Assembly (NCBI RefSeq): GCF_004348455.1 | Contig: NZ_SMKA01000063.1 | Span: 1-34,397, forward strand | Source: Kribbella albertanoniae | GTDB lineage: Bacteria; Actinomycetota; Actinomycetes; Propionibacteriales; Kribbellaceae | DNA: 34,397 bases | Reading direction: 5' to 3' | Shown here: positions 4,036-22,973 of the stretch, in pieces | Layout of the letters: each line of letters starts with the position of its first letter | Numbering within the stretch: position 1 is the first letter of the stretch | Translations under genes and position numbers: made by a program | The notes under the pieces: generated by a model | Told to the model about the DNA's origin: nothing | Database searches by the model: none | What the model saw: the letters and a program-made list of their open reading frames with translations, nothing else

Positions 4036-4908
4036 CTACCTCAGGTACGCCGACAGCGGGATCTGCTGGTCACGCACCGCCTTCGTGACCACGCCCGCGA
4101 TCTGACGAGCACCGGCGGCTTCGAAATGGGTGTGGTCGTTGCAGAAGAACGCACCGACCGGTCCCGATCCCCAGTCGCCGTTGTTCGGGCAGAACTTCAG
4201 GGTGTTGTACAGCGTGTAGCTCAAGCGGTGCAGGTCGATGACCGGTACCTGGTTGGCAGTCGCGGCAGCGTTCGTCTCGCTGATGAACCCGCGGGTGCCA
4301 ACCGCCGTACTGCCCGAGCACCTGATCGCAGAGACCGGGGTCATGAAGACAGGCTTCGCGCCCCGGGCCTTGGCCGCGGCAGCCATCACGCCGAGAAGCT
4401 CGCGGTAGCGCGCCGAACCTACATGCCGAGGGCAATTGGGATCACCGTCGTTGATCCCGAACTGGATCAGCAGATAGTCGCCGGCCTTCATCCCGGTCGT
4501 CGAGTTGAGCATCGCCTGCCAGCGCGATGAATACGTGTTCGAACTGAGGATGCACTCACCGGCCGAGTTCTTCGTACCGGTGACGTTGCCCTCGTACAGC
4601 CAGGTCTGGATGCTGCGTCCGCCGACGGCGCTGTTCCGCACCGTCACGTTGGTGTTGAAGTAGGGGGCGACCTGAGACCCCCACCCGGCCGGACACACCG
4701 CGCCGCCCGACGGCGCTGCCATCGTGGAGTCGCCGGCGAGCCAGACGGTAATGGGAGCTTGCGCCGCCGGAGCGGCCGACGCCGTGGTGGGTGATGACGC
4801 ACAGCCGTTGGCGACCGTAGGTGTCGCCGCACTAGCGGTGACGGTCGAGAAGACGATGGTCGCGCTGGTCAGCAGCGCAGTACGGACGAGGACTGATCGA
4901 AGATTCAT
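4036..4908 (-). CDS. Secreted rhamnogalacturonan acetylesterase-like SGNH hydrolase (CE12)
   Basis: This 290-residue protein has a Sec signal peptide (residues 1-28, ending ASA) and a short Ala/Thr/Pro linker to about residue 50. The SGNH/GDSL fold follows: block I LAGDSTMA with catalytic Ser61, block II Gly in NSAVGGRS, block III FGINDGD with Asn153, and block V DHTHF with Asp258 and His261. The GDST opening, the D-x-x-H spacing and the size match CE12 rhamnogalacturonan acetylesterases, which remove acetyl groups from GalA of RG-I. An AAGGAG site lies just before the ATG at 4908. It starts 10 bp after the stop of the CE12-PL11-CE2 fusion, so the two form one minus-strand operon. It is a separate, shorter version of the same activity as the fusion's N-terminal module. 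Confidence 0.88.
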   Translation of the reverse strand: MNLRSVLVRTALLTSATIVFSTVTASAATPTVANGCASSPTTASAAPAAQAPITVWLAGDSTMAAPSGGAVCPAGWGSQVAPYFNTNVTVRNSAVGGRSIQTWLYEGNVTGTKNSAGECILSSNTYSSRWQAMLNSTTGMKAGDYLLIQFGINDGDPNCPRHVGSARYRELLGVMAAAAKARGAKPVFMTPVSAIRCSGSTAVGTRGFISETNAAATANQVPVIDLHRLSYTLYNTLKFCPNNGDWGSGPVGAFFCNDHTHFEAAGARQIAGVVTKAVRDQQIPLSAYLR

Positions 4909-4918
4909 CGCGCACTCC

Positions 4919-7900
4919 TTAGATGTAGTCGTCGAGGACGGCGGTCAGGCGCTGCGCGATCTTCACGTGCCCTGCGTCGGTCGGATGGACGTTGTCATGG
5001 GTGTCCGCCGTGGTGATCCATCCGGTGGTGTCGACGAAGCGGACCCTGGTGTCCCCGGCAGAGGTCCGGGCCGCGACGGCGTTACGGGTCTCCGGCAGGT
5101 AGCGGTTGCGGAAGGTGCCCATCGCGAAGATCTGCGCGTTCGGGTAGGCCCGTCGGACGCGCTCGAGCATCACCACGTAGTTCTGCTGGAACGTCGGCCC
5201 CGAAACACTATGGCCGACATCGTTGGTGCCAAGGTTGATCACGACCCCAGCGGCCTGGTACGTCGAGAAGTTCCAGTCGTCGGTGGTCGCCGTGTTCGAG
5301 GATCGGCGGAACCAGTCGACCATTCCGTAGCAGTCCTGGGCGACCAGGCAGGCACCACCTTGCGCGACCTGGGTGTGACCGGCCTTCAGCGCTTCACCGG
5401 TAAGCCATGGGTACGACGTGAACGGGCGGTTGCCGTTCGGCTGGCCGACCGTGATCGAGTCGCCGATGAACTCGACGAGCTTCGCCGGTCGGCTGGTCGC
5501 AGCAGTCCCTCCGCCGCTCGCGAGGAGGAAACCGCCGAAGACCGGATCACCGGTGTACGAACCCGCCCGCTCCCGATAACCGACCCGGATCTTGTGGGTG
5601 CCGCTCGACAGACCGGTGGCGAGAGTGACGTTGCCGGAGACATTGCGTCGCCACTGCAGCGGCTTCCCGTCGACCGAGTAGTACAGGTCGATCGCGTTGC
5701 GCTGGCGGACGCCGATGGAGCTTCCGGTGAAGTTCGTCTCGACATAGCCGCCGGCCCAGCCCATCCAGTACCACGACGTGTTCGACCGGTTCCAGCGGCC
5801 GTAGTACTGGATGTTCGAGTCGTTCGGCAGTCCGTTGCCAGCCAGCATCGGAGCATCGGCGGCGACGGGCGTGCTGCTGATCGCGAAGCTCGGGTGCGGC
5901 GGCTGGTTGTAGCCGGTGTTCTGCCACGCCACGGCCACCCGGTACTGCCGGTCCTGCATCAGCGACGGCCGGGTGATCGACGTACTGTCCGTCGTCGAGT
6001 AGATCCGCAGCGCCCGGTTGTCCGACGTCCGCCAGATCACTTCCTCCCGCCAGTCACCAAGAATGTCGGCCGACAGTGCCGGCGTCGACTTCGTCCCGTT
6101 GTTGGAGACAACCCCGGAGCCGGTCAGCAGGCGAGTGTCACCGCCGGTGCCGTACTTGTCGATGTTGGTGCCGTCGAGCAACTCACGCTGCGCGTCACCG
6201 TCCCACCAGACCACGAAGTTGATCGACCCCGGCTTGCGGGCCGCGACCTGGTTGCCGTTGGTACCGCTCCGCAGACCGCTGACTGCCGACGACCAGGCTT
6301 CCGCCCCGGGGTTACCCGCCCAGATGTCCGCGGCGACTCCTCGGCCGTTGTCACAGCCGCACGACGGAGCACTCCAGATGATCTGACCGGTCCGCGCGTC
6401 ACCCATCCAATGCGCCACTTCGCTGGTCCACTCCGACGGCTTGAACACCTCAAGTCCTGGGCGGGAGGGGATGAAGTCGCTGACGTGGTAGGCGTCGCCG
6501 TGATGCGTGCCGTTCTGCCACAGGCCACGGCCGTTGTCGTCGATCGCCATCGACCCGTACATGACCTCGTCACGTCCGTCGGCATCGACATCGGCAATGG
6601 AGAGGTTGTGATTCCCCTTCCCGGTCCACGCGCTGCCGGCGCTGTTGGAGTCGAAGATCCAGCGCTGCGTCAAAGCGCCGTTGCGGAAGTCCCACGCGCT
6701 GATGACGGAACGCGTGTAGTAGCCACGCGCCATGATGATGCTGGGACGCGAGCCGTCCAGATACGCCGTACCGGCTAGGAAGCGGTCGACCCGGTTGCCG
6801 TAGTTGTCGCCCCAGGACGACACCGTGCCGCGCGGCGGCTGGTAGTTGGCAGTTGCCAGTACGGCGCCGTCGGTGCCGCGGAACACGGACAGGAACTCGG
6901 GTCCAGTGAGGATGTAGCCGCTGGAGTTGCGGTGGTCGGCACTGGCACTCCCGATGACCTGGCCGGTCCCGGACCGGGTGCCGTCGGCGGTCTTCACGGC
7001 GAGCTCGGCGCGGCCGTCGCCGTCGTAGTCGAACACCTGGAACTGCGTGTAGTGCGCGCCGGCCCGGATGTTGCGGCCGAGGTCGATCCGCCACAACCTC
7101 GTCCCGTTCAGCTTGTAGGCATCGAGGTAGACGTTGCCGGTGTAGCCGGCGTGCGCATTGTCGTGAACGTTGGTCGGATCCCACTTGACGACGATCTCGT
7201 ACTGCCCGTCACCGTCCAGGTCACCGACGCTGGTGTCGTTGGCGGTATAGGTGTAGGCCTCACCGGAAGGCGTCGTACCACCCGGCGGGATCTGCAGCGG
7301 AACGTCTCGGCTGCTCGCCTCCGCACCGTTGACACTGTCCAACGTCAGCGAGTCCTCAGCAGCGAACTTCGCCTGCCGCTCGACCCCATCGGTAACAGCC
7401 CGTACGACGTACTTCGCGCCGGCCGGTCCCTCCGCGTCCACGAAACTCGTCGGGCCACTGACCGGCGCGGAGTTCACCTTGGTGCCGTCGCGGTAGACGT
7501 TGTAGGTAACACCCTGCGGGTCGTCCGCGAGCAACCGCCAGCTGACACGGTTCCCCTTCGCCGTGTGCACACTGATCACACCGCGGTCGAGCGTCTCGGT
7601 CTGAGCCATCTGGGAAGGCTGGGAAGGCACCGAGGCGTCAGTCTCCGCCAAAGCGCCGGCCTTCAGGAAGGTCGTCAGCGAGAGGTTGCGCTCACGGATC
7701 CCCTGGACGACGAGCTCCGCCATCTGCGTCGCGCCGTACACCGAGAAGTGCGTGTTGTCGTTGTTCTCTCTGGTGAGGAACAGCTGCTGCGACGCCGTCG
7801 GCCCGAGCGACTCGACCAACGCCTTGCTCTTGGCGGTCAGGTCGATCACCGGAACGTTCGCGCTCTGACCGAGCGCCCGGATCATCGCGGGCAGGTCCAC

Positions 7901-8698
7901 GCCACGACCGTTGATGTGCAACGCGGTCGGAGTGAGCGAGTTGCCGCTGAACAGCCGTCGGACCGGCGGGGTCATCAGCACCGGCTTGCCGCCACGCTCG
8001 CGAACGCCGTTGACCAGCTTCGTGAGGTTGTCGCGGAACGCCGTCGCGGTGGTGTCCTTGTCGTTGTGGCCGAACTGGATGAAGACCAGATCGTTGCTCT
8101 TGATCAGCGGCTTCATCTTGGGGAACAACGCGGCGTTCGCGAGGAAGCTACCGGAGCTCTCGCCGGAGTCCCCGTAGTTCGCGACGACGGCACCGTTGCG
8201 GACGCGCGTGGGCAGCAACTGCCCCCATCCGGCGTACGGCGCTCCTGGCTGATCGCAGACGGTCGAGTCACCGGCGAGGTAGGCAACCAGCGGCGCCGAG
8301 GCCGGCTTGACGGTCAGCGCGCCGATCGCCGGCGCACTCCCGTCGAACGTGATGCTCAGGCCCGCGGTACCCGTTCCGCCCTGGCCCGTCGGCTGCCCTT
8401 CGGGGATGCGAACGTTGACCGTGGCGGTACTGCGGATCACCTGACCCGCGCGGGTGGAGACGACCGGCAGCACCTGCCTGCGGGTCTCCACCGACATGCC
8501 GGTGGTGGCAGCCTTGGTCGTGCTGCCGAGGTCGACCGTGACGTCATAGTTGCCAGGAGCAACGTCGAAATGGCACTGGATCGGCGCGGTTCCCGAGCAA
8601 CCCGCGGGCAATGCCGACGGTTGTGCGGTGGCCGGTAACGGGCTCAGCGAAGCAAAGGTCAGTGCCGAGGCAATGAGCACTTTTCGGAGGCTGGACAT
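4919..8698 (-). CDS. Three-enzyme secreted fusion: CE12 esterase, PL11 rhamnogalacturonan lyase, CE2-type esterase
   Basis: This is a 1259-residue secreted protein. ATG at 8698 is preferred: AGGAAGAGG lies about 10 bases upstream and a signal peptide follows (residues 1-26, ending ATA), whereas upstream Met codons give an Arg-rich non-signal sequence. Module order: beta-sandwich 35-130; CE12 SGNH esterase 136-346 (GDST Ser145, FGHND Asn212, DNTHF Asp314/His317); linker; RG-lyase beta domain 368-440; PL11 eight-bladed propeller lyase about 445-940 with calcium-type loops DLDGDGQYE, DYDGDGRAE and DVDADGRDE; CE2-N-like jelly roll 955-1062; second SGNH esterase 1072-1259 (GDSIT Ser1081, GTND Asn1159, DNVHPT Asp1235/His1238). 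PL11 enzymes cleave the Rha-GalA backbone of RG-I, and CE12 removes GalA acetyls. CE2 enzymes deacetylate various sugars, so the last module's target is uncertain. All catalytic motifs look intact. Two operator-like sites lie upstream. Confidence 0.9.
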   Translation of the reverse strand: MSSLRKVLIASALTFASLSPLPATAQPSALPAGCSGTAPIQCHFDVAPGNYDVTVDLGSTTKAATTGMSVETRRQVLPVVSTRAGQVIRSTATVNVRIPEGQPTGQGGTGTAGLSITFDGSAPAIGALTVKPASAPLVAYLAGDSTVCDQPGAPYAGWGQLLPTRVRNGAVVANYGDSGESSGSFLANAALFPKMKPLIKSNDLVFIQFGHNDKDTTATAFRDNLTKLVNGVRERGGKPVLMTPPVRRLFSGNSLTPTALHINGRGVDLPAMIRALGQSANVPVIDLTAKSKALVESLGPTASQQLFLTRENNDNTHFSVYGATQMAELVVQGIRERNLSLTTFLKAGALAETDASVPSQPSQMAQTETLDRGVISVHTAKGNRVSWRLLADDPQGVTYNVYRDGTKVNSAPVSGPTSFVDAEGPAGAKYVVRAVTDGVERQAKFAAEDSLTLDSVNGAEASSRDVPLQIPPGGTTPSGEAYTYTANDTSVGDLDGDGQYEIVVKWDPTNVHDNAHAGYTGNVYLDAYKLNGTRLWRIDLGRNIRAGAHYTQFQVFDYDGDGRAELAVKTADGTRSGTGQVIGSASADHRNSSGYILTGPEFLSVFRGTDGAVLATANYQPPRGTVSSWGDNYGNRVDRFLAGTAYLDGSRPSIIMARGYYTRSVISAWDFRNGALTQRWIFDSNSAGSAWTGKGNHNLSIADVDADGRDEVMYGSMAIDDNGRGLWQNGTHHGDAYHVSDFIPSRPGLEVFKPSEWTSEVAHWMGDARTGQIIWSAPSCGCDNGRGVAADIWAGNPGAEAWSSAVSGLRSGTNGNQVAARKPGSINFVVWWDGDAQRELLDGTNIDKYGTGGDTRLLTGSGVVSNNGTKSTPALSADILGDWREEVIWRTSDNRALRIYSTTDSTSITRPSLMQDRQYRVAVAWQNTGYNQPPHPSFAISSTPVAADAPMLAGNGLPNDSNIQYYGRWNRSNTSWYWMGWAGGYVETNFTGSSIGVRQRNAIDLYYSVDGKPLQWRRNVSGNVTLATGLSSGTHKIRVGYRERAGSYTGDPVFGGFLLASGGGTAATSRPAKLVEFIGDSITVGQPNGNRPFTSYPWLTGEALKAGHTQVAQGGACLVAQDCYGMVDWFRRSSNTATTDDWNFSTYQAAGVVINLGTNDVGHSVSGPTFQQNYVVMLERVRRAYPNAQIFAMGTFRNRYLPETRNAVAARTSAGDTRVRFVDTTGWITTADTHDNVHPTDAGHVKIAQRLTAVLDDYI

Positions 8699-8784: not shown

Positions 8785-8798
8785 TGTGAGCGCGAACA
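8785..8798. promoter_or_regulatory. LacI-type operator O1 in the fusion/LacI-2 divergent gap
   Basis: TGTGAGCGCGAACA, extended to CA at 8800, forms a TGTGnnCGCGnnCACA palindrome 86 bp before the fusion gene's start. It matches the site at 8871 at 13 of 14 positions. The 273-bp gap (8699-8971) between divergent genes contains no other coding signal I trust. Confidence 0.6.
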
Positions 8799-8870
8799 CA
8801 CTCCGGAATCGCTCGATCACCATGATGAAAGCGCATGTTCAGGACCCTGACAAGACCTGGTCACGAAACA

Positions 8871-8884
8871 TGTGAGCGTGAACA
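8871..8884. promoter_or_regulatory. LacI-type operator O2 in the fusion/LacI-2 divergent gap
   Basis: TGTGAGCGTGAACA is in the same orientation as O1 and starts 86 bp from it, about eight helical turns, a spacing compatible with looping by a tetrameric or paired repressor. A possible -10 box (TAAACT at 8929-8934) for LacI-2 lies downstream of it. Function is inferred from repetition and placement. Confidence 0.55.
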
Positions 8885-8971
8885 GTTCGCGCCGCCAGCC
8901 ACACCAGGGCCTTCCGCAGACACCCTTGTAAACTGCGCGGACCACGGCACCGGTTGCCAGGACGGAGGACG

Positions 8972-9982
8972 ATGGCGACGCCCAGCATCAAAGAAGTCGC
9001 CCAGCGGGCAGGCGTCTCGGTAGGGACCGTCAGCAACGTTCTGAACCGCCCCTGGATCGTTGCGGCGACCACCAGACAGCGCGTGCAGGACAGCATCCAG
9101 GCGCTCGGATTCGTCCGCAACGAAGCCGCTCGGCACCTCCGCGCCGGCCGCAGCCGGACCGTCGGGCTGATCGTCTTCGACGTCGCCAACCCGTTCTTCA
9201 CCGCCATCGCCGAGGGCGCGGAGGCGCTCGCCTACGCGCACGACACGATGGTGATGCTCTGCAACAGCAAGACCGACCGGGTCCGCGAAGGTCACCACCT
9301 GGACCAGCTCGAGCAGCAGCGTGTCCTGGGCATCCTGATCACGCCGTTCGACAGCAACGATCCCCGGCTGACCGCGATGATCGCCCGCGGTACGCCGGTG
9401 GTCCTGGTCGACCGTACGGCGGAGAGCGGACTCTGCTCGGTGAGCGTCGACGACCAGCTCGGCGGACGGCTGGTCGGCGAGCATCTGATCGAGACCGGAC
9501 ATCGCCGGATTGCCTTCATCGGCGGCCCTTTCGGGGTGCAGCAGGTCGCCGACCGGATGGCCGGCATCACCGCCGTTGTCGAGCAGGTCGGCACCGTGAA
9601 ACTGCAGTGCCATGAGGTCGACGTCATGGGCGTGACCGAGGGCCGGGTGATCGGCGAAAAGCTTGCCGCCCTGCCGGCGAGATCCCGGCCGACCGCCGCT
9701 TTCCTCGCCAACGACCTGCTGGCGCTGGGCTTCCTGCAGGCGATGGCCGCCGCCGGCCTGCGGGTACCCGAGGACATGGCCATCGTCGGGTACGACGACA
9801 TCGACTTCGCGCGCGCGGCCGCCGTACCGCTGTCGTCGGTGCGGCAGCCTGCCGAGCTGCTCGGCCGATCGGCGATGGAGCTACTCCAGGAAGAGGTCGA
9901 GGCCGCCGACAGCCACCGGCATCGTCAGGTGATCTTCCAGCCCGACCTGATCGTCCGGGCCTCCAGTACCGTGCAGCGATGA
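8972..9982 (+). CDS. LacI-family transcriptional regulator (LacI-2)
   Basis: This is a 336-residue LacI/GalR regulator. ATG at 8972 is preferred: GGAGG lies 3 bases upstream (rather close) and the HTH begins at once (SIKEVAQRAGVSVGTVSNVL). A TTG at 8954 has no ribosome-binding site. The ligand-binding domain carries GLIVFDVANPFFTAIAEGAE, GHRRIAFIGG and IVGYDDIDFA. The recognition helix (SVGTVSNVL) differs from that of LacI-1 (SRGTVSRVL), consistent with different operator preference. It is divergent from the CE12-PL11-CE2 operon, with two TGTGAGCG-type sites between. Its stop overlaps the start of the DUF1961 gene (ATGA, 9979-9982), so the two are translationally coupled. It is probably the local repressor of RG-I genes, induced by an RG oligosaccharide (inference). 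Confidence 0.93.
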   Translation: MATPSIKEVAQRAGVSVGTVSNVLNRPWIVAATTRQRVQDSIQALGFVRNEAARHLRAGRSRTVGLIVFDVANPFFTAIAEGAEALAYAHDTMVMLCNSKTDRVREGHHLDQLEQQRVLGILITPFDSNDPRLTAMIARGTPVVLVDRTAESGLCSVSVDDQLGGRLVGEHLIETGHRRIAFIGGPFGVQQVADRMAGITAVVEQVGTVKLQCHEVDVMGVTEGRVIGEKLAALPARSRPTAAFLANDLLALGFLQAMAAAGLRVPEDMAIVGYDDIDFARAAAVPLSSVRQPAELLGRSAMELLQEEVEAADSHRHRQVIFQPDLIVRASSTVQR

Positions 9983-10611
9983 TCCTGTACGACAACCCGC
10001 TCGCCACGGCCGATGACCTGGCCGGCTTCCGGCTCGAGGGTGATGGCGCCGTCTCCTTCCCACTCGGCCGGCTGCGGCTCGAGAGCACCCGATCGGCCGA
10101 CGAGGGCCAGGACGCGAACGTCGTACTCTGGTGTCCCGAGACCTTCCCGGCCGACATCGTGGTGGAGTGGGACTTCTGGCCGATTCACGAGCCAGGGTTG
10201 TGCATTCTGTTCTTCCACGCGGCGGGCCGGAACGGCGAGGATCTGTTCGACCTGGCGCCACGGACGGGACCGTACGAGCAGTACCACCACGGTGACCTCG
10301 ACACGTACCACGTTTCGTACTTCCGGCGGCGCTGGCCCGGGGAGCGCGCATTCCACACCTGTAATCTGCGGAAGAGCCACGGTTTTCACCTGGTCGCGCA
10401 GGGCGCCGATCCGTTGCCATCGGTCGCGGATGCGCAAGGCCCGTACCGGCTGCGACTGTCGGTGCGGAGCGGTTTGATCACGTTCGCGATCAATGACCTG
10501 GTCAGCTTCGAGTGGTACGACGAGCAGCCGCTGACCGGCGGCAAACTCGGCCTGCGGCAGATGGCGCCGCTCATCGGCGAGTACGCGAACCTGCGCGTTT
10601 CGCGCGCCTGA
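9979..10611 (+). CDS. DUF1961 family protein (YesU-like), cytosolic
   Basis: This 210-residue protein has no signal peptide or membrane segment. Its pattern (WDFWPIHEPGLCILFFHA near the middle, then DLFDLAPRTGPYEQYHHGDLDTYHVSYFRR in overlapping blocks, and a C-terminal IGEYANLRV strand) fits the DUF1961 family, typified by Bacillus subtilis YesU. That family has a concanavalin/LamG-like beta-sandwich fold and is found in pectin and rhamnogalacturonan loci. No reaction is assigned to the family that I know of. The ATG overlaps the LacI-2 stop by four bases, so its level is tied to that regulator. It could be a cytosolic enzyme or binding protein for unsaturated RG oligosaccharides (inference). 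Confidence 0.8.
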   Translation: MILYDNPLATADDLAGFRLEGDGAVSFPLGRLRLESTRSADEGQDANVVLWCPETFPADIVVEWDFWPIHEPGLCILFFHAAGRNGEDLFDLAPRTGPYEQYHHGDLDTYHVSYFRRRWPGERAFHTCNLRKSHGFHLVAQGADPLPSVADAQGPYRLRLSVRSGLITFAINDLVSFEWYDEQPLTGGKLGLRQMAPLIGEYANLRVSRA

Positions 10612-10655
10612 GTACGCCTGCGGACAGGCCTCGACCGGTCCCTCGTCCAGTCACC

Positions 10656-10704
10656 GACAAGCGCTTTCCCAACCCTTGACATTGAGACGATTCAACCATA
10701 CGGT
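10656..10704 (+). promoter_or_regulatory. Promoter with two operator-like palindromes before the transporter operon
   Basis: TTGACA at 10676-10681 is a good -35 box. TACGGT at 10699-10704, 17 bp on, is a weak -10. Between them TTGAGACGATTCAA (10682-10695) is an imperfect LacI-type palindrome (arms TTGA/TCAA, centre CG). Just upstream GACAAGCGCTTTCC (10656-10669) contains a perfect AAGCGCTT core, related to GGAAAGCGTTTTCC before the pectate lyase. Both placements suit repression of the operon starting at 10749. Confidence 0.55.
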
Positions 10705-10748
10705 CACATCACTTTTCGCCCGCAGAATGTATCGGCCAAGGAGTGACG

Positions 10749-11378
10749 ATGAGAGGCACTGGTTGGTCGATCAAGCTGTATGACGTTGCAGATGAGGTGA
10801 TCTGGGCGGTCCGGCTGAACTGCCTGTGGCTCGGCTTCACCCTGATCGGCGGTGTCGCACTGGGTATCGGTCCGGCTACTCTCGCGGCCTATTCCCTGGC
10901 TCGACGTCGGTCTTTCGGTGAATCGTTTCATATCTTCCCCGCCTTCCAGCAGGCGTTTCGGCGCGAGTTCCGTCGCGGCACCCTGGTGGGGCTGCCGGCG
11001 GTCGTCGCCGCGGTGCTGCTGGTCGGCAACTACCTGTACTTCGCCTCGCTCGGAGCGAGCGCATCACTCCCCCGCCTCGCCAGTCTGGGCGCGCTCGCCG
11101 TGCTCGGCGTGATCAGCGCGTACCTGCTGCCGATGGCGGTGCACTTCGACCTCCGCACCCGCGAGTTGTTGCCCAAGGCATCGTTGATCGCCCTGGCCCG
11201 GCCGGCGTCGTCGGCGGTACTGCTCTTCGTCGCGCTCTGCATCGGCTACGTCTCGGCGAAGTTCCCGGTGCTCGGAATCCTGCTGGCCGGCGGTGCCTGG
11301 ATCCAGCTGAACACGTGGCTCTGCCTGCGCTTCTTCGCCGAGAACGAGGCGCGTCTGCATCTGAAAGGGACCTCATGA
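10749..11378 (+). CDS. DUF624 (YesL-like) membrane protein
   Basis: This 209-residue integral membrane protein starts at ATG 10749, five bases after AAGGAG (an in-frame GTG at 10743 overlaps that site). Four or five hydrophobic segments are visible, for example CLWLGFTLIGGVALGIGPA, LPAVVAAVLLVGNYLYFASL, LGALAVLGVISAYLLPMAV and AVLLFVALCIGYV. The N-terminal W-N/L-x-LW plus GIGPAT pattern is typical of DUF624, represented by B. subtilis YesL. These proteins recur beside oligosaccharide ABC transporters of the LplA/YtcQ type. Their role is unproven, and an accessory or regulatory transporter subunit is often suggested. It is the first gene of the transporter operon, and its stop overlaps the next start (ATGA, 11375-11378). 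Confidence 0.82.
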   Translation: MRGTGWSIKLYDVADEVIWAVRLNCLWLGFTLIGGVALGIGPATLAAYSLARRRSFGESFHIFPAFQQAFRREFRRGTLVGLPAVVAAVLLVGNYLYFASLGASASLPRLASLGALAVLGVISAYLLPMAVHFDLRTRELLPKASLIALARPASSAVLLFVALCIGYVSAKFPVLGILLAGGAWIQLNTWLCLRFFAENEARLHLKGTS

Positions 11379-12913
11379 CCATCATCTCCCGGGGAAGTGT
11401 CGCGCTGGCCGCGTCACTGACCCTGCTCGCCGTTGCCGGATGTTCCGGCGGCAGCGACGACAAGGGCCAGGCCACCGACGAGCTCACCGTGATGGCGCCG
11501 CTGTTCGGCACCGCACCCGATCCGGGTGGTGAGCTCCAGCAGGCGGTCGAGAAACTGATCGGCAAGAAGCTCAAGGTCACCTGGGTTCCGAACGCCGAGT
11601 ACGGCGACAAGTCGAACGTCACGCTGGCCTCGGACAAGCTGCCCGATGTGATGGTGACGAACGAGAAGGGCTCGTCGTTCGTGAAGGCCGCCGAGGCCGG
11701 CGCGTTCTGGGACCTGACCGGCAAGCTCGACAAGTATCCGAACCTGAAGCCTGCCAACGAGCAGATCGCCAAGAACTCGACGACCAACGGCAAGACCTAC
11801 GGCATCTACCGGGTCCGGCCGCTGCTGCGCTCCGGCATCGTGATCCGCAAGGACTGGCTGGCCAAGGTCGGTCTGAAGGAGCCGCGCACGGTCGACGAGC
11901 TGCGGGCGGTCGCGAAGGCGTTCACCGAGCAGGACCCGGACGGTAACGGCAAGAAGGACACCTACGGCCTGATCATCCCGAAGTGGCCCGGTGGCTACAG
12001 CAGTGCCAGCCCGTACGACGTGATCGAGACCTGGTTCGGCGCTCCCAACGCGTGGGGTGAGCGCGACGGCAAGCTCGTCCCCGGCTTCGACACCCCGGAG
12101 TTCCTGGCCGCGAACAAGTGGCTGCGGGGCTGGGTGCAGGAAGGCCTGGTCAACCCCGACTTCGCCACCCTGGACACCGGCAACTGGAACAACCCGTTCG
12201 TGCAGGGCAAGGGCGGCATGATCATCGACGTCAACGTCCGCGCCACCCAGTTGCTCGACCTGTTCAAGGAGAAGAGCCCGAAGGACTTCGACAAGGTCAC
12301 CCTGGTCGGCAACCTGGAGCGCTCGGACGGCAAGAAGTTCTCCTACCCGTTCACCGGTTACAACATGGTGATGGCGATCTCCAAGCAGCGGATCCGGACC
12401 GAGGAGCAGCTCGACCAGGTCCTGCAGACGCTGGACAAGCTGCAGTCCAAGGAGGGCTCGGTCCTGCTCACCAACGGGATCGAGGGCCGCAACTTCAAGG
12501 TCGAGGGTGAGTTCGCCGTACCGATCAACCAGGACGACCCGAAGGTCAAGACGATCCAGAACGACGTGGACAAGGGCTTCATCCAGCTCGGCACCCGGGC
12601 CAGCGTCGGCATGGGCGCCTACCGGCTGAAGCCGGCCGACGAGGCCAGCCGCGCGATGCGCGACAAGTTCGACGTGCTGATGAACGAGGACCTCAAGACG
12701 GCCGTGTTCAACCCGGCGCAGGGTGTGCTCGCCCCGACCGCGACCGCCAAGAGCCAGACCCTGGACACGATCATTCCGGACGCCCGGATCAAGTACCTGT
12801 CCGGCGCGATCACCGAGGACCAGCTGAAGGAACAGATCAAGCGCTGGTACGACGCCGGTGGTACTCAGGTCGCCCAGGAGGTCAACGACCTGGTCGCCAA
12901 GGTCGGCGGCTGA
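11375..12913 (+). CDS. ABC transporter lipoprotein, extracellular solute-binding protein (LplA/YtcQ type)
   Basis: This 512-residue lipoprotein starts at ATG 11375, overlapping the DUF624 stop, with AAAGGGA upstream. The signal peptide ends in a lipobox LAVAGC (Cys23), and the mature protein begins with a Gly/Ser/Asp-rich tether. It is longer than ordinary family 1 sugar-binding proteins and has the LplA-like features: an EF-hand-like DPDGNGKKDTYGL loop near residues 187-200 and Trp-rich segments such as GTGNWNNPF-like DTGNWNNPF. Members of this subclass serve large oligosaccharides such as pectin, RG or mannan fragments. Within this operon the ligand is most likely an RG-I oligosaccharide (inference). 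The next permease starts 3 bp after its stop. Confidence 0.9.
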   Translation: MTIISRGSVALAASLTLLAVAGCSGGSDDKGQATDELTVMAPLFGTAPDPGGELQQAVEKLIGKKLKVTWVPNAEYGDKSNVTLASDKLPDVMVTNEKGSSFVKAAEAGAFWDLTGKLDKYPNLKPANEQIAKNSTTNGKTYGIYRVRPLLRSGIVIRKDWLAKVGLKEPRTVDELRAVAKAFTEQDPDGNGKKDTYGLIIPKWPGGYSSASPYDVIETWFGAPNAWGERDGKLVPGFDTPEFLAANKWLRGWVQEGLVNPDFATLDTGNWNNPFVQGKGGMIIDVNVRATQLLDLFKEKSPKDFDKVTLVGNLERSDGKKFSYPFTGYNMVMAISKQRIRTEEQLDQVLQTLDKLQSKEGSVLLTNGIEGRNFKVEGEFAVPINQDDPKVKTIQNDVDKGFIQLGTRASVGMGAYRLKPADEASRAMRDKFDVLMNEDLKTAVFNPAQGVLAPTATAKSQTLDTIIPDARIKYLSGAITEDQLKEQIKRWYDAGGTQVAQEVNDLVAKVGG

Positions 12914-12916
12914 CCT

Positions 12917-13909
12917 GTGGCCACCGATCTGGTGCCCGAAGTTGCCCCGCCCGCCGCGAAGGTCTCGCGGCGGGCGCCGGCCCCGAAGCGCAGGCGCCGT
13001 ACCAGGCCGTTGTGGCAGGACCTGCTTCGCTACCGCTGGCTGTACCTGCTTCTCCTGCCCGGCCTGGTGTACTTCCTGGTCTTCAAGTACCTGCCGATGT
13101 ACGGCCTCTCCATCGCGTTCAAGGACTACGTGCCGTTCCTCGGCTACTCCGGTAGCGAGTGGGTCGGGCTGAAGCACTTCCAGGAGCTGTTCACCGGACC
13201 GGACTTCGGCCGGTTGATGGGCAACACGATGCTGCTGGCGCTGCTGACGATCGTCTTCGTCTTCCCGGCGCCGATCGTGGTCGCGCTGCTGCTGAACGAG
13301 CTGCGCGTCAACGTGGTCAAGCGGTCCGTTCAGTCGCTGATCTACATCCCGCACTTCCTGTCCTGGACGATCGTTGCCTCGCTCACCTATCTGTTGTTCT
13401 CGGTGGACTTCGGCGTGATCGCGAACTGGATCCACGGCCTGGTCGGTGGCCAGAAGACCGACTACGTGGCACAGGCCGACTGGTTCCGGCCGTTGATCGT
13501 GGCGCAGTTGCTGTGGAAGCAGACCGGGTGGGGCACGATCATCTACCTCGCCGCACTGGCCGGCGTCGACTCGCAGTTGTACGAGGCGGCCCGGGTGGAC
13601 GGCGCCGGGCGGTGGCGGCAGTTCTGGCACATCACCCTGCCGTCGATCGCGCCGACAGTCGTGATCATGGCGATCCTGACGTCGGGCAACCTGCTGGACT
13701 CGGGCTTCGAGCAGATCTGGCTGATGACCACCTCACTCAACCGGGACGTCGCCGATGTGTTCGACACCTTCGTCTACTCGATCGGCATCACCCAGGGTGC
13801 GTTCAGCTACGCGACCGCGGTCGGACTGTTCAAAGGCCTGGTCGGTGTCGTGCTGATCTTCGGCTCGAACTTCCTGGCGAAGCGTCTCGGTCAGCGCGGA
13901 TTGTTCTGA
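12917..13909 (+). CDS. ABC transporter permease, LplB type
   Basis: This 330-residue permease starts at GTG 12917, 3 bp after the binding-protein stop. A basic N-terminal tail (KRRRRTRPLWQDLLRYRW) precedes six predicted membrane helices. The EAA coupling motif is clear, YEAARVDGAGRWRQFWHITLPSIAP, which would contact a cytosolic ATPase. The KYLPMYGLSIAFKDY opening is characteristic of LplB/YtcP-partner permeases for complex oligosaccharides. It pairs with the following permease to form the channel. No ATP-binding subunit is encoded in the window, so a shared MsiK-like ATPase is expected (established for actinobacterial sugar transporters, inferred here). Confidence 0.92.
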   Translation: MATDLVPEVAPPAAKVSRRAPAPKRRRRTRPLWQDLLRYRWLYLLLLPGLVYFLVFKYLPMYGLSIAFKDYVPFLGYSGSEWVGLKHFQELFTGPDFGRLMGNTMLLALLTIVFVFPAPIVVALLLNELRVNVVKRSVQSLIYIPHFLSWTIVASLTYLLFSVDFGVIANWIHGLVGGQKTDYVAQADWFRPLIVAQLLWKQTGWGTIIYLAALAGVDSQLYEAARVDGAGRWRQFWHITLPSIAPTVVIMAILTSGNLLDSGFEQIWLMTTSLNRDVADVFDTFVYSIGITQGAFSYATAVGLFKGLVGVVLIFGSNFLAKRLGQRGLF

Positions 13910-13922
13910 GAGGGACCGACAG

Positions 13923-14819
13923 ATGCTGAACAAGAAGAAATCAGTCCGGTACTACGACTCGCTGGGCAGCCGCACATTCGACGTACTGAATGTCGTGCTG
14001 CTGGTAGGCCTCGGCATCATCACCGTGCTGCCGCTGGTCTACGTGCTGGCGGGGTCGTTCGCGACCGAGTCCGAGATCAGCTCGCGGCCGTTCTTCCTGT
14101 GGCCGGAGAAGTTCGTCACCGACACCTACCAGTACATCTTCTCCACCGACACGTTCGTCCGGGCGCTGCTGACCACGATCTGCGTGACCGCGGTCGGCAC
14201 GATCGTCCAGCTGGCGCTCACGCTGACCATGGCCTATCCCCTGGCCAAGCGGGCCCTGCCCGGACGCGCGCTCGTGCTGAACCTGGTGATCTTCACGCTC
14301 GTGTTCAGCGGCGGCATGATCCCGACCTATCTCGTGGTGCGGGATCTTGGCCTGCTGAACAGCTACTGGGCGCTGATCCTGCCGCTGGCGATCAACCCGT
14401 TCTACCTGATCGTGGTGAAGAGCTTCTTCCAGGAGCTGCCCGAGGCGCTCGAGGAGGCCGCCCGGATCGACGGCTGCAACGAGCTGAACGTCTTCCTGCG
14501 GATCGTGCTGCCGCTGTCGAAACCGATCATCGCCACGTTCTCGCTGTTCTACGCGGTCGGGATCTGGAACGACTACATGTCGACACTGCTCTACATCGAC
14601 GACAGCAAGAAGTGGACGCTGCAGATGATCGTCCGGCAGCTCACCGCGACCAACGCGGACTCGGCGAACGTCCTGCAGCAACTGGAGACCGTCACATTTC
14701 CCGAGCAGGGCCTGAAGTTCGCGGTGGTCGTCGTGGCAACCCTGCCGATCCTGCTGTTCTACCCGTTCTTGCAGAAGCACTTCGCGAAGGGCGTCCTGAT
14801 CGGATCGGTGAAGGAATGA
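13923..14819 (+). CDS. ABC transporter permease, YtcP/LplC type
   Basis: This 298-residue permease has ATG 13923, AGAGGGA upstream and a 13-bp gap from the previous gene. It has six hydrophobic segments, the motif GGMIPTYLVVRDLGLLNSYW in the periplasmic/TM3-4 region, and the EAA coupling motif LEEAARIDGCNELNVFLRIVLPLSKP. The C-terminus (YPFLQKHFAKGVLIGSVKE) is the standard ending of the YtcP/LplC group. It is the partner of the LplB-type permease. Its stop overlaps the start of the cytosolic PL26 gene (ATGA, 14816-14819), placing a lyase in translational coupling with an importer. Confidence 0.93.
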   Translation: MLNKKKSVRYYDSLGSRTFDVLNVVLLVGLGIITVLPLVYVLAGSFATESEISSRPFFLWPEKFVTDTYQYIFSTDTFVRALLTTICVTAVGTIVQLALTLTMAYPLAKRALPGRALVLNLVIFTLVFSGGMIPTYLVVRDLGLLNSYWALILPLAINPFYLIVVKSFFQELPEALEEAARIDGCNELNVFLRIVLPLSKPIIATFSLFYAVGIWNDYMSTLLYIDDSKKWTLQMIVRQLTATNADSANVLQQLETVTFPEQGLKFAVVVVATLPILLFYPFLQKHFAKGVLIGSVKE

Positions 14820-17398
14820 CCACCGTGCACTGGCTAGAGACGCCGGCCAGGCAAGGCGTCACATGGGGTGTTCCCTGGCCACGTGGAACCGTTGCCGGCG
14901 GCACGCAGTTCGGGCTCGCCGACGGTACGCCGGTGCAGAGCTGGACGACCGCGACCTGGCCGGACGGATCGATCAAGTGGTCGGCCCACGCAATTGGGCC
15001 GGCCGAGCACCCGGCGTCGTCGTACGACATCGTCATCGGAGAGCCCGCCGTACCGGATGATCCTGTGCACGTAGAGGACATGGGCGCAGAGATCCGGGTG
15101 ACGTCCGGGGCGGTCACGTGGGTGTTGCGCGCTCCGATGCTGATCGCGTCGATCGGCATCGAGGACCGCGAGATCGCGCGCGACGTCCGGCTTGTCAGTT
15201 TGCGCCAGGACGCACCGGACGAGGACGGGAGCAGGTACCGGCATCGGACGACGGCGACTGTGGACACGATCACCGTTGAGCAGTCCGGGCCGGTCCGGGC
15301 TGTGGTCAAGCTAGACGGCAAGCACGGTGACTGGTTGCCGTTCTCGGTTCGTCTCTACTTCTACGCCGGAGCGACCGACGTACGGATAGTGCACAGCTTC
15401 ATCTGGGATGGCGATCCAGATCGGGACTTCCTGGCCGGGCTGGGCCTGAGCACGGATGTGGTGATGCGCGATCAGCCGCACGACCGGCACGTGCGCCTGG
15501 CCGGTCCGACCGGATTCCTCGCCGAGGCAGTCCGGGGACTCACCGGACTGCGCCGCGATCCGGGCGAGCAGGCGCGCCGGGAACAGGTCGCCGGCCGGCC
15601 GATCGAAGAGATCACGAACCCGGAGGTGTTCGGCCGCCTGCACCTCATCCCCCAGTGGAACGACTACACGCTCGACCAGAGCAGCGCCGACGGCTTCACC
15701 CTGCGCAAACGCACCGGCTCAGAGCATGCCTGGGTGACCATCCCCGCGGGGACGCGCGCGCCGGGATACGGGTACGTCGGCGGTGCCAGCGGCGGACTGG
15801 GATTCGGTCTACGCGATTTCTGGAGGCTCCATCCGACCAGACTCGACATCCGCAACGCGGCCACTGACCTCGCCACCGCGACCGTGTGGATGTGGTCGCC
15901 CAGTGCTCCGGCCATGGACGTCCGCTTCTGGCACGACGGCATGGACCAAGACAGTCATGCCGAGCAGCTCGAAGGCCTCGAGATCACCTACGAGGACTAC
16001 GAACCGGGCTTCGGTAACGCCCACGGCGTCGCCCGAACCCACGAGCTAACGCTGCGGGTTCACGACAGCACCCCGACTACCGACGAGCTCGCGCAACACA
16101 CCGCGCTGCTCGACTCCCCCGGCTTGCTGACGGTCTCCCCCAGCCGGATGCTGGAGGCCGGCGTCTTCGGCACCTGGAGTCTGCCGACGGCCGACCATCA
16201 GGACCTTGAAGCCAGGTTGAACTTCCTCTTCCAGTACTACGTCGGCCAGCGCGAGCAACGCCGGTGGTACGGGTTCTGGGACTACGGCGATGTCATGCAC
16301 ACCTACGACCGCGACCGGCACACCTGGCGGTACGACGTCGGTGGCTATGCCTGGGACAATTCGGAGCTCTCGCCGGATCTGTGGCTCTGGTACCAGTACC
16401 TGCGCACCGGCCGGGCCGACGTGTTCCGGTTCGCGGAGGCGATGACCCGGCACACCGGTGAGGTCGACGTCCATCATCTCGGCCGCTGGAAGGGTCTCGG
16501 ATCACGGCACAACGTCCAGCACTGGGGTTGCAGCTGCAAGCAGCTCCGCATCTCCAGCGCGATCTACCGGCGGTTCTACTACTACCTCACCGCCGACGAG
16601 CGGACCGGCGACCTGCTGGACGAGCTGGCCACCGCCGAGGAGACCTTCCTGGCAGTGGATCCGCTGCGCAAGGTGCGTACCGACGTCTACACCCCTGACC
16701 CGCACGCGCTGTCGGTCGGGCTCGGCGTGGACTGGGGCGCCCTCGCGGCCAGCTGGCTCACCCGCTGGGAGCGGTACGGCGACGAACGCGCTCGCTCGCG
16801 GCTACTCGGCACCATGGCCGATATCGCCGTACTGCGCTACGGATTCCTGACCGGGAACGCCGCGCTCGATCTGTCGACCGGCCGCTTCGACACCAGTCGA
16901 CGGAACATCTCGGTCTCCCACCTGTCCGCCGTCTTCGGACTCCCCGAGGTCTGCGCGGAACTCATCGACCTGGACCTCGACGTACCGGGGTTCGAGAAGG
17001 CCTGGCTCGACTACTGCCGGCTGTATCTGTTGCCGCCGGAGCAGCAGGCTGCCGAGGTCGGCGAGGCATTACAAGGCATCTCGCTCGTCCAGGCGCACAG
17101 CAGGCTCGCGGCTTATGCCGCAGCACGGACCGGTGATGTGGAGCTGGCGCGCCTGGCCTGGCGGACGTTCTTCGTCGACGAGGGTGACCAGCTCAACCGC
17201 AATGCCTTGCAGCGTGAGGCGGAGTGGCGGACCACGCCGGTGACCGGCGGGCTGATGCCGGTCGACGAGGCGCCTTTCGTCAGCACCAACGACGCGTCGC
17301 AGTACGCGCTCGCCGCAATTCAGAACCTGACTCTGATCCCCGAGCACCGACATGACAAAGGTGGACCGGTATGGAGATCTCCCGACGCACAGTCCTAG
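14816..17398 (+). CDS. PL26-type exo-rhamnogalacturonan lyase without signal peptide (cytosolic copy)
   Basis: This 860-residue protein starts directly in its first domain (HWLETPARQGVTWGVPWPRG), at the ATG overlapping the permease stop, and no export signal is present. It matches the exo-rhamnogalacturonan lyase family (PcRGLX/PL26): an N-terminal beta domain to about residue 80, a central beta-sandwich (residues about 90-370), and an alpha-barrel-like C-terminal half with YGFWDYGDVMH, WRYDVGGYAWDNSELSPD and FAEAMTRHTGEVDVHHLG. Family enzymes remove unsaturated GalA-Rha disaccharide units exolytically. A region conserved in the downstream paralogue reads HWGCSCKQ here (residues 569-576) against HWADSAKQ there, an odd double-Cys change. 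It probably degrades imported RG oligosaccharides (inference). Confidence 0.85.
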   Translation: MTTVHWLETPARQGVTWGVPWPRGTVAGGTQFGLADGTPVQSWTTATWPDGSIKWSAHAIGPAEHPASSYDIVIGEPAVPDDPVHVEDMGAEIRVTSGAVTWVLRAPMLIASIGIEDREIARDVRLVSLRQDAPDEDGSRYRHRTTATVDTITVEQSGPVRAVVKLDGKHGDWLPFSVRLYFYAGATDVRIVHSFIWDGDPDRDFLAGLGLSTDVVMRDQPHDRHVRLAGPTGFLAEAVRGLTGLRRDPGEQARREQVAGRPIEEITNPEVFGRLHLIPQWNDYTLDQSSADGFTLRKRTGSEHAWVTIPAGTRAPGYGYVGGASGGLGFGLRDFWRLHPTRLDIRNAATDLATATVWMWSPSAPAMDVRFWHDGMDQDSHAEQLEGLEITYEDYEPGFGNAHGVARTHELTLRVHDSTPTTDELAQHTALLDSPGLLTVSPSRMLEAGVFGTWSLPTADHQDLEARLNFLFQYYVGQREQRRWYGFWDYGDVMHTYDRDRHTWRYDVGGYAWDNSELSPDLWLWYQYLRTGRADVFRFAEAMTRHTGEVDVHHLGRWKGLGSRHNVQHWGCSCKQLRISSAIYRRFYYYLTADERTGDLLDELATAEETFLAVDPLRKVRTDVYTPDPHALSVGLGVDWGALAASWLTRWERYGDERARSRLLGTMADIAVLRYGFLTGNAALDLSTGRFDTSRRNISVSHLSAVFGLPEVCAELIDLDLDVPGFEKAWLDYCRLYLLPPEQQAAEVGEALQGISLVQAHSRLAAYAAARTGDVELARLAWRTFFVDEGDQLNRNALQREAEWRTTPVTGGLMPVDEAPFVSTNDASQYALAAIQNLTLIPEHRHDKGGPVWRSPDAQS

Positions 17399-22959: not shown

Positions 22960-22973
22960 TGTTAACGTTAACA
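22960..22973. promoter_or_regulatory. Perfect LacI-type palindrome between the GH43 and PHP genes
   Basis: TGTTAACGTTAACA is a perfect 14-bp palindrome 15 bp upstream of the GH43-type gene's start, in the 103-bp divergent gap shared with the PHP gene. It differs from GTTAGCGTTAACA at 1143 at one position, making LacI-1 the leading candidate binder. It could control both flanking genes. Confidence 0.7.

Follow-up and report, generated by a model that had tools for sequence, protein, structure and literature searches.

A predicted rhamnogalacturonan lyase carried between two types of esterase on one polypeptide in Kribbella albertanoniae

The window considered here is a 34,397-nucleotide stretch (contig NZ_SMKA01000063.1) from the soil bacterium Kribbella albertanoniae, whose draft genome comprises 9.73 Mb in 593 contigs. 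The open reading frame (ORF) at 4919-8698 on the minus strand is confirmed, at the level of its predicted domains, as a fusion of a CE12 esterase, a PL11 rhamnogalacturonan lyase, and a CE2 esterase. Acetylation hinders the breakdown of rhamnogalacturonan-I (RG-I), and it seems probable that the product is a tethered, secreted RG-I deacetylase/lyase in which the CE2 module would remove acyl groups that CE12 leaves. We draw on the gene, its modules, their catalytic residues, the selection acting on them, the locus context, and the pattern of fusions to infer the activities of the protein, the division of labor between its esterases, and its regulation.

The fused gene and its modules

The 1259-residue translation of the minus strand at 4919-8698 is free of internal stops, and the longest ORF in the same frame begins at 8836. 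The gene and its parts are as follows.

4919-8698, minus strand: fused gene for signal peptide-CE12-PL11-CE2, 1259 aa (translation and Pfam; counterpart in Kribbella antibiotica)
8621-8698, minus strand: putative signal peptide, residues 1-26 (judged by eye from the sequence)
8285-8620, minus strand: CE12 N-terminal beta domain, residues 27-138, YxiM-like (YxiM 2o14 alignment from residue 43)
7664-8284, minus strand: CE12 SGNH module, residues 139-345 (Pfam PF00657; alignments to 1deo and 2o14)
7604-7663, minus strand: linker 1, residues 346-365 (11 codons shorter in K. antibiotica; no purifying selection seen)
5873-7603, minus strand: PL11 rhamnogalacturonan lyase, residues 366-942 (Pfam PF18370 and PF21348; 4cag, YesW, YesX)
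5807-5872, minus strand: linker 2, residues 943-964 (6 codons longer in K. antibiotica)
5507-5806, minus strand: CE2 N-terminal jelly roll, residues 965-1064 (Pfam PF17996; model fold match to CE2 structures)
4922-5470, minus strand: CE2 SGNH catalytic domain, residues 1077-1259 (Pfam PF13472; 2wao alignment)

An earlier note on this stretch had named these three families in this order, and both Pfam and sequence comparison with PDB entries bear it out. In the lyase module Pfam finds RGI_lyase (PF18370) at 366-445 (96.6 bits against a cut-off of 27.8) and RGL11_C (PF21348) at 464-942 (770.8 bits against a cut-off of 27, E 7.7e-232). Its PDB relatives are 4cag (697 bits, E 2.1e-208), YesW (685 bits), and YesX (652 bits), and the higher scores of 4cag and YesW suggest that its mode is most likely endo.

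In the CE12 region Pfam places Lipase_GDSL (PF00657) at 141-330, a model that covers only the wider Lipase_GDSL family, and no Pfam match of its own was found for the N-terminal beta domain (27-138). The PDB relatives of this first module are YxiM and the Aspergillus rhamnogalacturonan acetylesterase 1deo; the similarity to YxiM starts at residue 43 and so takes in the N-terminal domain. The SGNH domain resembles 1deo and YxiM and has the serine of a GDST motif, the glycine, the asparagine, and the DxxH motif expected of CE12, although the NCBIfam PaeY model matches it at 36.4 bits, far under the cut-off of 1000. Ser145, Gly183, Asn212, Asp314, and His317 are all present, and 15 of 15 aligned homologs keep each of them unchanged except Gly183 (12 of 15).

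The third module has the domain order of CE2, that is, a CE2_N jelly roll (PF17996) at 965-1064 (47 bits against a cut-off of 27.9) followed by an SGNH domain (Lipase_GDSL_2, PF13472, best at 1077-1244). Its PDB relative by sequence is 2wao, the CE2 module (CtCE2) of Clostridium thermocellum Cel5C-CE2. The AxeC2 equivalog NF042969 (acetylxylan esterase/glucomannan deacetylase) gives 50.7 bits against a cut-off of 500, so the module is not this particular enzyme, its membership of CE2 being unaffected. A model of the module has a mean predicted local distance difference test score (pLDDT) of 84, with two short loops below 50, and matches seven CE2 entries at Z 28.3-31.5, including 2wao (Z 31.5, root mean square deviation 3.1, 292 aligned) and 2waa (Z 30.5, 2.9, 295 aligned); a salicylyl-acyltransferase, at Z 22.3, is the first match of another fold. 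Ser1081, Asn1159, Asp1235, and His1238 are the same in every one of the 18 aligned homologs. The residues that the earlier note had named in the two esterases (Ser145/Asn212/His317 and Ser1081/Asn1159/His1238) are exact in every case, with Asp314 and Asp1235 completing the DxxH motifs, and both esterases do resemble the families to which it had assigned them. One alignment (A2) was discarded; its lone CE2 rows, at 23-30% identity, had evidently been placed under the CE12 part.

The same three-module gene lies in one frame in K. antibiotica JCM 13523 (genome G021, L122:7031-10819; L038 is identical to L122), with 88-89% identity. By our own Nei-Gojobori script, synonymous divergence (dS) between the two genes is about 0.55 and the ratio of nonsynonymous to synonymous divergence (dN/dS) is about 0.13 for the whole gene. 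By part, dN/dS is 0.13 (N-terminal domain) and 0.075 (SGNH module) in CE12, 0.10 in PL11, and 0.16 (CE2_N) and 0.10 (SGNH domain) in CE2; the linkers, at 1.2, 0.68, and 0.64, are unconserved. Linker indels are whole-codon only (11 and 6), and the signal peptide adds 3 gap codons. Because purifying selection is seen on each module and the linker indels preserve the frame, these comparisons indicate that all three modules are kept functional in frame. Neighboring genes might have been joined by an error of assembly or sequencing, since the window comes from a draft of many contigs and elsewhere the modules are adjacent genes. We give this practically no credence and reject it: a gene found intact in the assembly of a second species, at this divergence and with a dN/dS of 0.08-0.16 per module, is not what the frameshift or misassembly feared in the earlier note would leave.

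Four modules divided differently among genes

Ten bases past the stop of the fused gene begins a free CE12 gene (4036-4908, minus strand), as the earlier note had observed. We refer to its product as CE12b and to the fused CE12 as CE12a. The note had taken the free gene to mean that the fused copy is not the only source of the activity; such a further gene is present, but it is not a spare copy, since it represents another type of CE12, with 29-33% identity to CE12a, has orthologs of its own, and is itself fused to CE2 in two sister species (Kribbella G008 and G024). We therefore reject the idea that the fused CE12 is a duplicate of the free one.

Relatives were sought in 38 Kribbella genomes, in a genome-contig scan (the best 80 of 197 confirmed stretches were kept), and in a class sample of 394 genomes including the window's own (393 without it). 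In the class surveys 2 candidates were scored per genome with the whole protein and 5 with a CE2 profile, so misses are possible there. The survey of the architecture that the earlier note had suggested finds the triple fusion in two of the 38 Kribbella genomes, those of the window and of K. antibiotica, and no further case was found among the best 80 of 197 loci or, with 2 candidates scored in each, in the 394 class genomes. A plasmid search gave 39 matching records, and none covers 80% of the protein. The CE12a-PL11 fusion of this lineage is present in four of the 38 Kribbella genomes (the window's, K. antibiotica, G008, and G024).

Elsewhere the same modules are cut differently. Kribbella G008 and G024 have, in order, [CE12a-PL11], a GH53 galactanase, and [CE2-CE12b]. 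Kribbella G028 encodes CE12a and PL11 in two neighboring genes and, further on, GH53, CBM35-CE2, and CBM6/CBM35-CE12b. Dactylosporangium aurantiacum has PL11, CE12a, CE2, and CE12b as four tandem separate frames, Amycolatopsis sp. A133 has CE12a, CE2, and PL11 in separate frames, A. orientalis has CE2, PL11, and CE12b in separate frames, and a Saccharothrix metagenome-assembled genome (MAG) has a CE2-CE12a fusion. Altogether, CE2 of the window kind occurs in 16 PL11-containing loci (one of them partial) among the best 80 of 197. These gene orders reveal a four-module kit (CE12a, PL11, CE2, and CE12b) that is divided differently into genes and that ties CE2 to PL11 and CE12.

In a PL11 tree the four fused copies group together (99/93), and next to them (100/98) stand G028 and another PL11, which the window genome carries unfused; support for pairing the window with K. 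antibiotica inside the group of four is only 88/81. Most simply, CE12a and PL11 would have fused once, after which CE2 was attached either behind PL11 or ahead of CE12b. Between PL11 and CE2 the window has no GH53, and no GH53 match was found in the K. antibiotica draft genome, so loss of GH53 could have created the PL11-CE2 joint. The Kribbella series would also record how neighboring secreted genes can assemble into a multi-enzyme protein.

The window genome also encodes a second, distant CE12-PL11 protein (G000:C542, L123:6457-10821) in a 1455-aa frame, with a YxiM-type galactose-binding domain, SGNH, fn3, and PL11; it is 31% (CE12) and 53% (PL11) identical to the fused protein. Proteins similar to it occur in other actinobacteria in frames of up to 2172 aa.

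Proposed role of the CE2 module

A profile built from an 18-row alignment places the window CE2 in a discrete and little-studied subfamily. Five of the 38 Kribbella genomes hold 6 copies between them, at 540-567 bits, and the match that follows reaches 109; among the 393 other class genomes, 12 copies in 8 genomes score 398-492 and the next 142, with one fragment at 238 over 161 positions. All five Kribbella genomes with the subfamily have PL11 either fused to it or within about 12 kb, and any PL11 match (1e-50) is found in 15 of the 38 (hypergeometric 0.006). All eight class genomes also have a PL11 match, against 54 of 393 overall (hypergeometric 8e-8). CE12b adjoins CE2 in three of the eight class loci, whereas PL11 or CE12 was found in none of 12 generic CE2-like control loci of Kribbella, one of which had PL1.

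We hypothesize the following sequence of events. The CE12 module would remove acetyl from O-2 and O-3 of galacturonic acid (GalA) in the RG-I backbone, the PL11 module would then cut rhamnose (Rha)-(1,4)-GalA bonds by beta-elimination, most likely in endo fashion, and the CE2 module would remove acyl groups beyond the reach of CE12, the likeliest being acetyl groups of RG-I itself (where backbone Rha O-3 is known to carry them), of fragments freed from it, or of hexose side chains. CE12b and PcRGLX-type lyases encoded nearby would finish degradation before import, under LacI-type control. The deacetylate-then-cut logic of the earlier note is supported by the domains, the intact residues, and the RG-I locus. 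Its description of the protein as processive-style is unsupported, as the linkers vary freely and PL11 scores nearer to endo 4cag and YesW than to YesX. More modestly, flexible linkers may tether the modules and let them act by proximity.

The sources we consulted place RG-I acetyl at GalA O-2 and O-3 and, in okra, also at Rha O-3 (PMC11360243), and they describe a CE2 preference for O-6 of hexoses (PMC3659327) as well as one CE2 that acts on mannan O-2, O-3, and O-6 (PMC9487903). Given these sites and preferences, we propose for CE2 a position left over by CE12, and the second acyl position that the earlier note had read from the CE2 end is plausible. A second esterase type that is repeatedly joined to, or found beside, the lyase/CE12 set points the same way.

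Other observations weigh against this proposal. According to the excerpts available, the O-6 preference is joined by the action of characterized CE2 enzymes on xylan and mannan (PMC2661963), and rhamnogalacturonan acetylesterase activity is credited to CE12 alone (PMC9487903). PL11 lies within about 10 kb of CE2 in none of the eight class loci found CE2-first; CE12b adjoins CE2 in three of them, CE2-CE2 tandems occur in four (two in one frame), and CE2 stands alone in one. The local link between CE2 and RG-I genes is thus not universal, and we dropped it as a rule, the 0 of 8 found CE2-first being weaker than the 16 of 80 loci found PL11-first and the five of five genomes in Kribbella. The eight class genomes are not independent, as they fall in only 4 genera, and in each genome the search scored 2 candidates for PL11 and 5 for CE2. 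Finally, the predicted fold of residues 130-1259 (mean pLDDT 42, predicted template modeling score 0.29) is useless for the arrangement of the modules.

Two of the tandems (L176 and L177, in G076 and G396) consist of two CE2-subfamily copies separated by less than 40 bases within a single open frame (686-692 aa), which would encode a CE2-CE2 double protein.

We tentatively suggest, while holding it to be somewhat less than an even chance, that this CE2 clade is a dedicated deacylase of RG-I, an acidic pectin, and the first RG-I esterase outside CE12, using a DxxH triad and an F-R-x-R motif, perhaps on backbone Rha O-3 acetyl. The motif (Phe1196, Arg1197, Arg1199) lies in the loop region where CtCE2 carries the glucan-binding Trp746; Phe1196 and Arg1199 are invariant in 18 CE2 sequences and Arg1197 nearly so. 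It is of interest because the cleft of an Aspergillus CE12 enzyme is described as lined with Arg and is thought to take carboxylates (PMC9487903, in part), a comparison that is our own. If true, the fused enzyme would strip two acyl positions around each lyase cut.

The most serious competitor, which we consider unlikely but hold well above those discussed below, is that the CE2 module, as an ordinary 6-O-deacetylase, serves mannan, xyloglucan, or galactan side chains, plays no part on the RG-I backbone, and is kept on the lyase since these polymers adjoin RG-I in the wall. The hexose O-6 preference and the eight class loci already described fit such an enzyme, as do the GH53 galactanase gene beside CE2 in G008, G024, and G028 and the GH5 gene that adjoins the CE2-CE12b gene in G008 and G024. 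It sits less easily with the PL11 match in every class-sample genome that has the subfamily, with the different substrate cleft of the best-studied glucan-binding CE2, and with a review of wall acetylation in which, as far as its consulted text goes, galactan is not a term (PMC11360243).

That cleft also bears on whether CE2 serves mainly for binding, in the manner of Cel5C-CE2, whose CE2 holds the partner enzyme on cellulose. This described modular precedent (PMC2661963, in part) and the CBM6/CBM35 that some relatives' CE2 has instead (G028, Dactylosporangium), as if binding mattered, speak for it. None of the residues Tyr665, Trp746, and Trp790, whose roles in CtCE2 are given in the same source, is matched in the window: the first two fall in alignment gaps and Trp790 corresponds to Val1237. 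A cellulose anchor is therefore disfavored, and with catalytic residues invariant in 18 of 18 we find a mainly binding role improbable. More improbable still is that proteolysis of the linkers in the medium frees three separate enzymes, so that the fusion sets equal dose only. The linkers change fast and vary in length, and separate-gene versions exist elsewhere, but there is no evidence of protease sites and four Kribbella genomes retain CE12a and PL11 as one fusion.

Locus, regulation, and comparison with known systems

The gene content of the surroundings shows the fused gene to sit in an RG-I locus.

4036-4908, minus strand: free CE12 (CE12b), 290 aa
8785-8798, minus strand: operator-like site TGTTCGCGCTCACA upstream of the fused gene, putative function
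8871-8884, minus strand: operator-like site TGTTCACGCTCACA upstream of the fused gene, putative function
8954-9982, plus strand: divergent LacI-family regulator
9979-20064, plus strand: RG-I uptake and degradation genes (DUF1961, DUF624, solute-binding protein, two permeases, two PcRGLX-type lyases)

A GH30-type enzyme is encoded near the fused gene, with GH43, PL1, and GH5 further off. The two PcRGLX-type lyases are in tandem (about 14816-17398 and 17371-20064), their frames overlapping slightly. At 1176-2507, beside pectin genes, lies an Exo_endo_phos-type enzyme with a C-terminal jacalin lectin domain.

The two operator-like sites are near-identical and both lie between the fused gene and the LacI gene. 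With up to 3 mismatches the site-8871 pattern has six matches where 2.7 are expected, a count attained in 4 of 100 shuffles, and with up to 2 its only matches in the window are at 8785 and 8871. In K. antibiotica a one-mismatch match to TGTTCACGCTCACA precedes the fused gene by about 60 bases and is the sole one in its 18-kb contig. Because the search pattern was copied from 8871, support comes only from site 8785 and from the site in K. antibiotica. With a symmetric LacI-type pattern the window shows 2 matches, no more than chance (2.0 expected; 63 of 100 shuffles reach this number). The fused gene may be under LacI-type control. Separately, a perfect palindrome, TGTTAACGTTAACA, stands at 22960-22973 just upstream of the GH43 ORF, with a two-mismatch copy at 1142-1155 between a LacI gene (5-1036) and the gene at 1176; these may be operators of another LacI regulator.

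The locus resembles the Bacillus subtilis yes locus, with PL11 enzymes YesW and YesX, the CE12 enzyme YesT, and transporter and DUF1961/DUF624 neighbors; the window's DUF1961 and DUF624 genes would be YesU-like and YesL-like. The yes genes are separate and are not known to include a CE2.

The earlier note knew of no characterized enzyme with this module order. This holds in part, as CE12 and PL11 on one chain are already published (PMC10483417, PMC4081043, PMC13386854) and, as far as these partial sources go, only the added CE2 is unreported; the novelty is limited to it. CE2 and PL11 on one chain were not found in the portions consulted of the open-licence literature on rhamnogalacturonan, CE2, PL11, and acetylesterase. 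The available text of PMC10483417 counts 50 CE12:PL11 proteins in CAZy, uncharacterized to its authors' knowledge, proposes deacetylate-then-cut synergy for them, and mentions no CE2 module, in contrast to the window protein; one of them, Metabacillus HUW50_16055 (CE12-CBM35-PL11), has CE12 first, as here. According to the consulted part of PMC13386854, which places CE2 among acetylxylan esterases, PL11;CE12;CE12 proteins of lake-sediment MAGs likewise combine one lyase with two esterases, but both are CE12 and the lyase comes first. Ruminococcus flavefaciens FD-1 (PL11-Doc-CBM35-CE12) and R. albus 8 (PL11-CE12-CBM13-CBM13-CBM37) also carry lyase and rhamnogalacturonan acetylesterase on one polypeptide, in reversed order, with dockerin or CBMs and a single esterase type (PMC4081043, in part). 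A Paenibacillus cellulosilyticus plasmid record (L162:4893-10859, a 1989-aa frame) matches the window in having one PL11 and two SGNH esterases and differs in that both are CE12-like, PL11 comes first, and FIVAR and cohesin domains are present.

For the CE2 module the precedent is Cel5C-CE2, in which a polysaccharide-cleaving enzyme carries an added CE2 of the same fold; Montanier et al. 2009 described CtCE2 as the sole CE2 then known within a modular enzyme (PMC2661963, in part). Its partner is a cellulase, and its aromatic cellulose-binding cleft and Ser-His dyad are unmatched in the window CE2. Also close are Kribbella G008 and G024, which have the same four modules at 76-88% identity as [CE12a-PL11] and [CE2-CE12b], but with CE2 joined to CE12b and a GH53 gene between the two fusions.

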